Virus record (IMG/VR): IMGVR_UViG_3300042372_000619 | Span: 1 to 41,269 of that record | DNA length: 41,269 nucleotides | Source: a virus | Direction: 5' to 3' (one strand) | Part shown: in pieces, positions 20,210-20,371 of the stretch | Layout: every line of letters starts with the position of its first letter | Position numbering within the stretch: the first letter of the stretch is position 1 | The notes under the pieces: model-generated | Told to the model about the DNA's origin: nothing | What the model saw: only the letters and a program-made list of their open reading frames with translations | The model's database searches: none | Translations under genes and position numbers: made by a program

Positions 20210-20248
20210 TCCCAAACCAGATGCGCTACCAGGCTGCGCTACGCCCCG
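20210..20248 (-). pseudogene. 5' half of tRNA-Pro(UGG), attP core
   Basis: The minus strand of 20248-20210 reads CGGGGCG (acceptor strand), TA, a D-arm GCGC-AGCCTGGTA-GCGC, A, the anticodon stem TCTGG and loop TTTGGGA with anticodon TGG. This is tRNA positions 1 to 38. Identity to a tRNA stops there: the next bases are TAAGA, where CCAGA would complete the anticodon stem. It is not a functional tRNA gene in the phage but the segment of identity with the host attB, with strand exchange probably in the anticodon loop. Confidence 0.82.
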
Positions 20249-20371
20249 AAACCTGCGAAGGTGTTGATCTACAACCGTTTCCTGAGAAGTCCAGTGGAAC
20301 AATTGTGGAACCGTGAGACTTGAATTCAAGTCTCACGTGCGACTTGGACCTACGCTGCCCCCGCGTGGCGG

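Follow-up and report, generated by a model that had tools for sequence, protein, structure and literature searches.

Integration into the 3' part of a tRNA gene is usually explained by the host promoter being left in place, a rule that is broken by phages integrating through the 5' half. Through such phages, it becomes possible to test how a virus, using its own DNA, can supply a required host tRNA in adequate amounts. The window (the whole stretch of viral DNA analysed here, 41,269 nt) carries the 5' half of a tRNA-Pro(UGG) gene, and the question raised by this locus is from where the tRNA would be transcribed after integration. The explanation that we consider quite probable is that the site is an attP used for integration into the anticodon loop of a single tRNA-Pro(UGG) gene, with the rebuilt gene transcribed from phage DNA. 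In this model, the integrase would exchange strands in the anticodon loop of the host's only tRNA-Pro(UGG) gene, and integration would put phage DNA in the place of nucleotides 1-38 of the working gene and of everything upstream of it, while the native promoter, left at the int end with a 39-nt stub, would be directed towards int in antisense. With the phage 5' half, the tRNA sequence would be restored without change, down to the anticodon-stem 5' strand that has to pair with the 3' strand of the host, and the rebuilt gene would be transcribed from phage DNA, most likely by a short promoter within ~50 bp of the tRNA.

Since a 127-bp direct terminal repeat is present, we take the window for a complete circular phage, and the site for its attP rather than a prophage end. 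The minus strand from 20248 to 20210 reads CGGGGCGTAGCGCAGCCTGGTAGCGCATCTGGTTTGGGA, an exact match to nt 1-39 of caulobacterial tRNA-Pro(UGG), and the probability of an exact 39-mer by chance in 41 kb is ~3e-19. Nucleotide 39 is standard position 38 (there is one extra D-loop base), the last base of the anticodon loop, in agreement with the earlier note, which had described an identity to tRNA positions 1-38 ending in this loop. Past the loop, attP reads TAAGAACGCGG and the host genes read CCAGAGGGTCG or GCAGAGGGTCG; the identity does not extend through the 3' half. Running from tRNA nt 1 to the anticodon loop beside an integrase gene, the block belongs to the 5'-fragment, anticodon-loop class. 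No complete tRNA was detected in the window by ARAGORN. The locus contains the following features:

18756-20111, plus strand: divergent tyrosine-recombinase integrase gene (int), 451 aa (PHROG phrog_1, E=2.5e-7)
20108-20119, plus strand: arm-type repeat GTGAGACTTGAA, the int-side arm
20210-20248, minus strand: attP identity block, equal to nt 1-39 of tRNA-Pro(UGG) (acceptor 5' strand, D arm, anticodon stem 5' strand and loop)
20210-20216, minus strand: putative 7-bp strand-exchange overlap, anticodon loop TTTGGGA, placed where the identity of attP with both prophage ends of the Phenylobacterium lysogen G001 (see below) stops
20265-20293, minus strand: candidate phage-borne tRNA promoter, TGGACT (20293-20288), N15, GTAGATCA (20272-20265), at -45/-17 from tRNA nt 1
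20312-20337, no strand: palindrome CGTGAGACTTGAATTCAAGTCTCACG with perfect (100%), ungapped 13-bp arms, forming the paired arm-type sites towards the late genes
20337-20348, plus strand: degenerate arm-type repeat GTGCGACTTGGA
20372-20677, minus strand: small ORF that closes the late/lysis block and is directed at the tRNA half
20681-21262, minus strand: endolysin gene, co-directional with the tRNA half (phrog_7, E=1.8e-38; 55% identical in the G001 lysogen)

The integrase gene, the arm repeats and the core make up the layout of a tyrosine-recombinase attP, with int pointing towards att and ending ~100 nt from the identity block. The crossover probably falls within the anticodon loop, the exact cut sites being estimated from the limits of identity. 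A lone arm-like copy (10/12), identical to the degenerate copy at 20337, is found at 6862-6873, distant from att. An inverted repeat across the core (GTTTGGGA/TCCCAAC) was rejected, as it is not kept in the Phenylobacterium relative. The stub RNA folded no better than shuffles, and Rfam with a relaxed E-value cannot see half tRNAs.

The integrase has no match to Pfam PF00589, and the only close relative found is the integrase of a Phenylobacterium prophage (L002, the same as contig C59 of G001), which is 66-75% identical. By eye, the box II histidine of the window integrase is apparently replaced (DLRDT) and the tyrosine lies in DKHY; the closest relative likewise lacks a PF00589 match and seems to have this histidine replaced. 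The divergent clade of tyrosine recombinases to which the window integrase belongs occurs in many phage contigs, and a search with the integrase alone against viral contigs and annotated phages returned no relatives. In three distant relatives (L040-L042), the 3' half of tRNA-Lys(CUU) stands at the same position relative to int. The order of int, core and identity block is kept in them, with the tRNA orientation alone reversed, and the reversal would be permitted by the near-symmetric anticodon stem-loop. In the integrase tree, the 5'-half Pro pair lies far from a 5'-half Arg trio, suggesting more than one change of orientation, and the XerD-type PP496355 is a further case of the 5'-half orientation.

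The searches turned up no lysogen of the window phage, and the lysogen evidence comes from one lysogen, in a MAG, of a collinear relative. In this MAG (Phenylobacterium sp. SCN 70-31; G001), a prophage collinear with the window splits tRNA-Pro(UGG). On contig C59, the int end, the same half tRNA lies next to int (38/39 matching) and is followed, as in the window, by TAAGA; this 39-nt 5' stub is accompanied by a host-type promoter. G001 holds one other copy of the half tRNA, on contig C9, where it runs into a complete tRNA-Pro(UGG). Upstream of this full tRNA are a near-identical arm palindrome (a near-palindrome, at the place equivalent to the window palindrome), the lysis block and then relatives of window proteins in the same order up to the contig end; altogether, 17 proteins are in common order between the window and the prophage (C9 and C59, the integrase being on C59). 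The end of C9 and the start of C59 overlap by exactly 88 bp, so that they join as one prophage of ~43 kb, in which int is intact (L002). In empty-site relatives, a thioesterase gene, tRNA-Pro(UGG) and an ETC-complex-I-subunit gene are contiguous (with tRNA-Arg next in some), whereas in G001 the thioesterase gene is on C59 and the ETC gene on C9 (names read by eye from the protein sequences), indicating that the tRNA gene was split at the anticodon loop.

The common identity at the G001 junctions begins at tRNA nt 1, plus one matching base at -1, which suggests that the identity outside the recombination core is maintained for the sake of rebuilding the tRNA. Reading attL and attR of a lysogen, proposed earlier as a check, was thus possible for the relative's prophage, and attB is the tRNA gene. 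The arrangement that had been predicted, a full tRNA with phage DNA upstream and the host promoter left with a 5' fragment, is present on C9 and C59, respectively. We regard this topology, an anticodon-loop split with the full tRNA behind phage DNA, as almost certain. Other scans gave no further case: a pattern of arm site and tRNA spacing had no match in 390 genomes, but it missed G001 too and was hence overly strict; the 5' half plus TAAG had no match in IMG/VR; and the loci returned for GTAGCGCATCTGGTTTGGGAC were complete tRNA-Pro genes only.

The 5' half (at most 3 mismatches) was matched in 244 of 299 Caulobacteraceae genomes, once in 243 of these 244 and twice in the lysogen. G001 contains 39 detectable tRNAs, including one each of Pro CGG, GGG and UGG, although the MAG is without some expected tRNAs and hence incomplete. 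The count suggested earlier thus revealed no second tRNA-Pro(UGG) in G001 or in the sampled Caulobacteraceae. Since UGG is the usual reader of CCA codons, the gene is probably essential. The anticodon stems of the hosts are mainly UCUGC/GCAGA or UCUGG/CCAGA. In the lysogen, the phage half has UCUGC and the host GCAGA, while the window half has UCUGG, as in CCAGA hosts, and a host of the CCAGA type is predicted for the window phage.

Because tRNA-Pro(UGG) is single-copy and the host-type promoter is parted from the gene, transcription of the rebuilt tRNA would have to start in phage DNA, which we hold to be very probable. Host tRNA-Pro(UGG) promoters consist of TTGCG-N16/17 and a -10 motif at ~-50/-28, and TTGCGG..CTATATCG precedes the stub on C59 (12.5 bits, shuffle p=0.013). 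A promoter model (TTGcCc-N16-CTATAnnS) was trained on the other 38 tRNAs of G001 and then run on the phage flanks; it is lineage-limited, as it scores low on L080 and L099, in which the upstream DNA belongs to hosts from other lineages. The best hit in the window, TGGACT-15-GTAGATCA, has 7.7 bits and is not above shuffles (p=0.25-0.40), and the best hit in the sister prophage on C9, TGGCCC-16-GTAGGGCA (7.3 bits), is at the same aligned place. Jointly, the two candidates are reached by 3.5% of column shuffles (p=0.035) in a hand-made alignment, and their common position is suggestive only. A strict sigma-70 scan of the window found no promoter. The remark in the earlier note that no clear promoter is visible therefore holds for strict sigma-70 sites, but a weak, positionally conserved candidate exists; and the palindrome, which had been placed in the promoter region, lies upstream of the likeliest promoter region, not over it. 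We lean towards 20265-20293 as the promoter.

Further 5'-half phages are PP496355 and L288 (tRNA-Pro UGG), L287, L291 and L292 (tRNA-Arg CCU) and L068 (tRNA-Arg UCU). The phage origin of the upstream DNA is supported by phage-type genes beyond the tRNA half in L287, L288, L291 and L068, and is taken from the place within the contig for L292. Sequences like tRNA promoters are enriched in the phage-side flanks of 5'-half attP sites (n=8; Fisher p=6e-5, or 4e-5 without the window pair), and since some of the eight flanks are interrelated, the figure for one flank per lineage (1e-3) is the fairest. PP496355 and L288 share TTGCG and CTAGGAAA, 16 nt apart in each, although the sequence in between has diverged, a pattern that would be expected of a promoter. 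This comparative evidence is stronger support for a phage-borne promoter than the window's own candidate, and such promoters appear alongside very different integrases.

The rebuilt tRNA could also be made with no dedicated phage promoter, by read-through from prophage transcription down the late/lysis block. In the window, on C9 and in L068, the late genes run in the same direction as the tRNA half, terminator scans found no terminator between the late genes and the tRNA half, and the promoter candidate of the window is weak. However, a lysogen needs the tRNA constantly but normally does not express its late genes. In addition, the best promoter hit occupies the same aligned position in two diverged phages, at a distance like that in the hosts, and good promoters exist in other 5'-half phages, so we consider read-through an unlikely source. 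After induction, read-through into the rebuilt tRNA is likely, because it lies co-directionally below the lysis block. Much less probable is that the block is not attP but a remnant of a tRNA gene once carried by the phage, or a chance similarity: complete tRNA-Pro genes with this 5' half occur in many large phages, but here an exact 39-nt match stops in the loop and has int and arm repeats as neighbours, and the same half beside the relative's integrase marks its prophage ends, which refutes this reading for the Phenylobacterium relative and makes it highly improbable here.

The target here, a single-copy tRNA hit in the anticodon loop, would suit tRNA-dependent lysogeny, where the host tRNA is left broken and the phage complements it with its own tRNA. 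That mode is characterized by a core of ~10 bp, a tRNA that is not rebuilt and a whole isotype tRNA on the phage, whereas the identity here is 39 nt, no tRNA is encoded in the window and the lysogen has an intact, rebuilt one; the last two points refute it, and we give it practically no chance. With transcription from phage DNA as the preferred explanation, a wider proposal is that transcription is rewired at both ends: phages of reversed orientation would repeatedly gain their own tRNA promoter, and the stranded host promoter would give constitutive antisense transcription towards int, silencing int only while integrated and releasing it on excision. No terminator-like site was seen between the stranded promoter and int. 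We put this proposal forward as a doubtful one.

In Islander, 3760 islands have 3' tDNA fragments and 159 have 5' fragments, of ~3,900 (PMC4383910), and the claim that carriers of the 3' half are the rule is borne out. In the 5'-fragment islands, as in this locus, the fragment displaced is the 5' part, which the element supplies anew, so that the restored gene has element DNA upstream (PMC4383910). Islander lists such islands without following their promoters, whereas here a phage lineage is described and a lysogen was traced to its promoters. Archaeal pTN3 elements rebuild the tRNA away from its promoter, and bacterial cases are said to be seldom (PMC8371274, PMC5495485). Elements of the pTN3/TKV4 type share with the window a tRNA 5' half (~41 bp), a crossover near the anticodon loop and a full tRNA off its original promoter, but their attP is inside int, which is split on integration, and the int promoter is thought to drive the tRNA (PMC8371274, PMC5495485). 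Unlike the suicidal integrase genes of the pTN3/SSV type, int in the window is intact, and att is not within it.

Rhizobium phage 16-3, considered as a possible 5'-half precedent, is also an alphaproteobacterial temperate phage in the anticodon region of a tRNA-Pro gene (tRNA-Pro(CGG)), but its attP, read directly from its sequence, carries the 3' half, and its integrase has no significant similarity to that of the window. In mycobacteriophage Fionnbharth, an example of tRNA-dependent lysogeny, a phage-borne promoter must likewise supply a non-redundant host tRNA, but the host gene is broken and the whole tRNA is on the phage, while here a half tRNA is supplied in cis (PMC10865867). Microcystis phage Mvi-Yong1342-1 (PP496355) has the tRNA-Pro(UGG) 5' half beside a XerD-type integrase in the same geometry; it differs in having an ordinary PF00589 integrase, with very weak similarity to that of the window, and a much clearer promoter (TTGCGC-N16-CTAGGAAA). 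Insertion through the 5' half is thus an uncommon, already recorded way, and it is well documented here in the MAG of a carrier bacterium. For this lysogen, the empty site, both junctions, the gene copy number and the stranded host-type promoter were traced. The promoter question across 5'-half phages seems not to have been followed before in the literature searched.

Several minor observations concern these relatives. PP496355 (5' half at L165 3002-3040) is recorded under Microcystis viridis, and its promoter matches those of caulobacterial tRNAs; the phage may in fact infect an alphaproteobacterium that lives alongside the cyanobacterium. Between int and att, the Phenylobacterium prophage has an additional ORF (L002 3203-3943), by eye an HNH-type endonuclease, which the window is without. 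Two contigs of isolate 2617270874 carry the tRNA-Arg(UCU) 5' half beside related integrases (L068 4563-4601 and L099 4557-4595), one half being flanked by phage genes and the other by a host-type gene, possibly as tandem prophages in one tRNA gene; nothing close to the L068 integrase was found across Alphaproteobacteria. In L287 and L291, which have XerD-type integrases, DNA methyltransferase genes adjoin the 5'-half attP.
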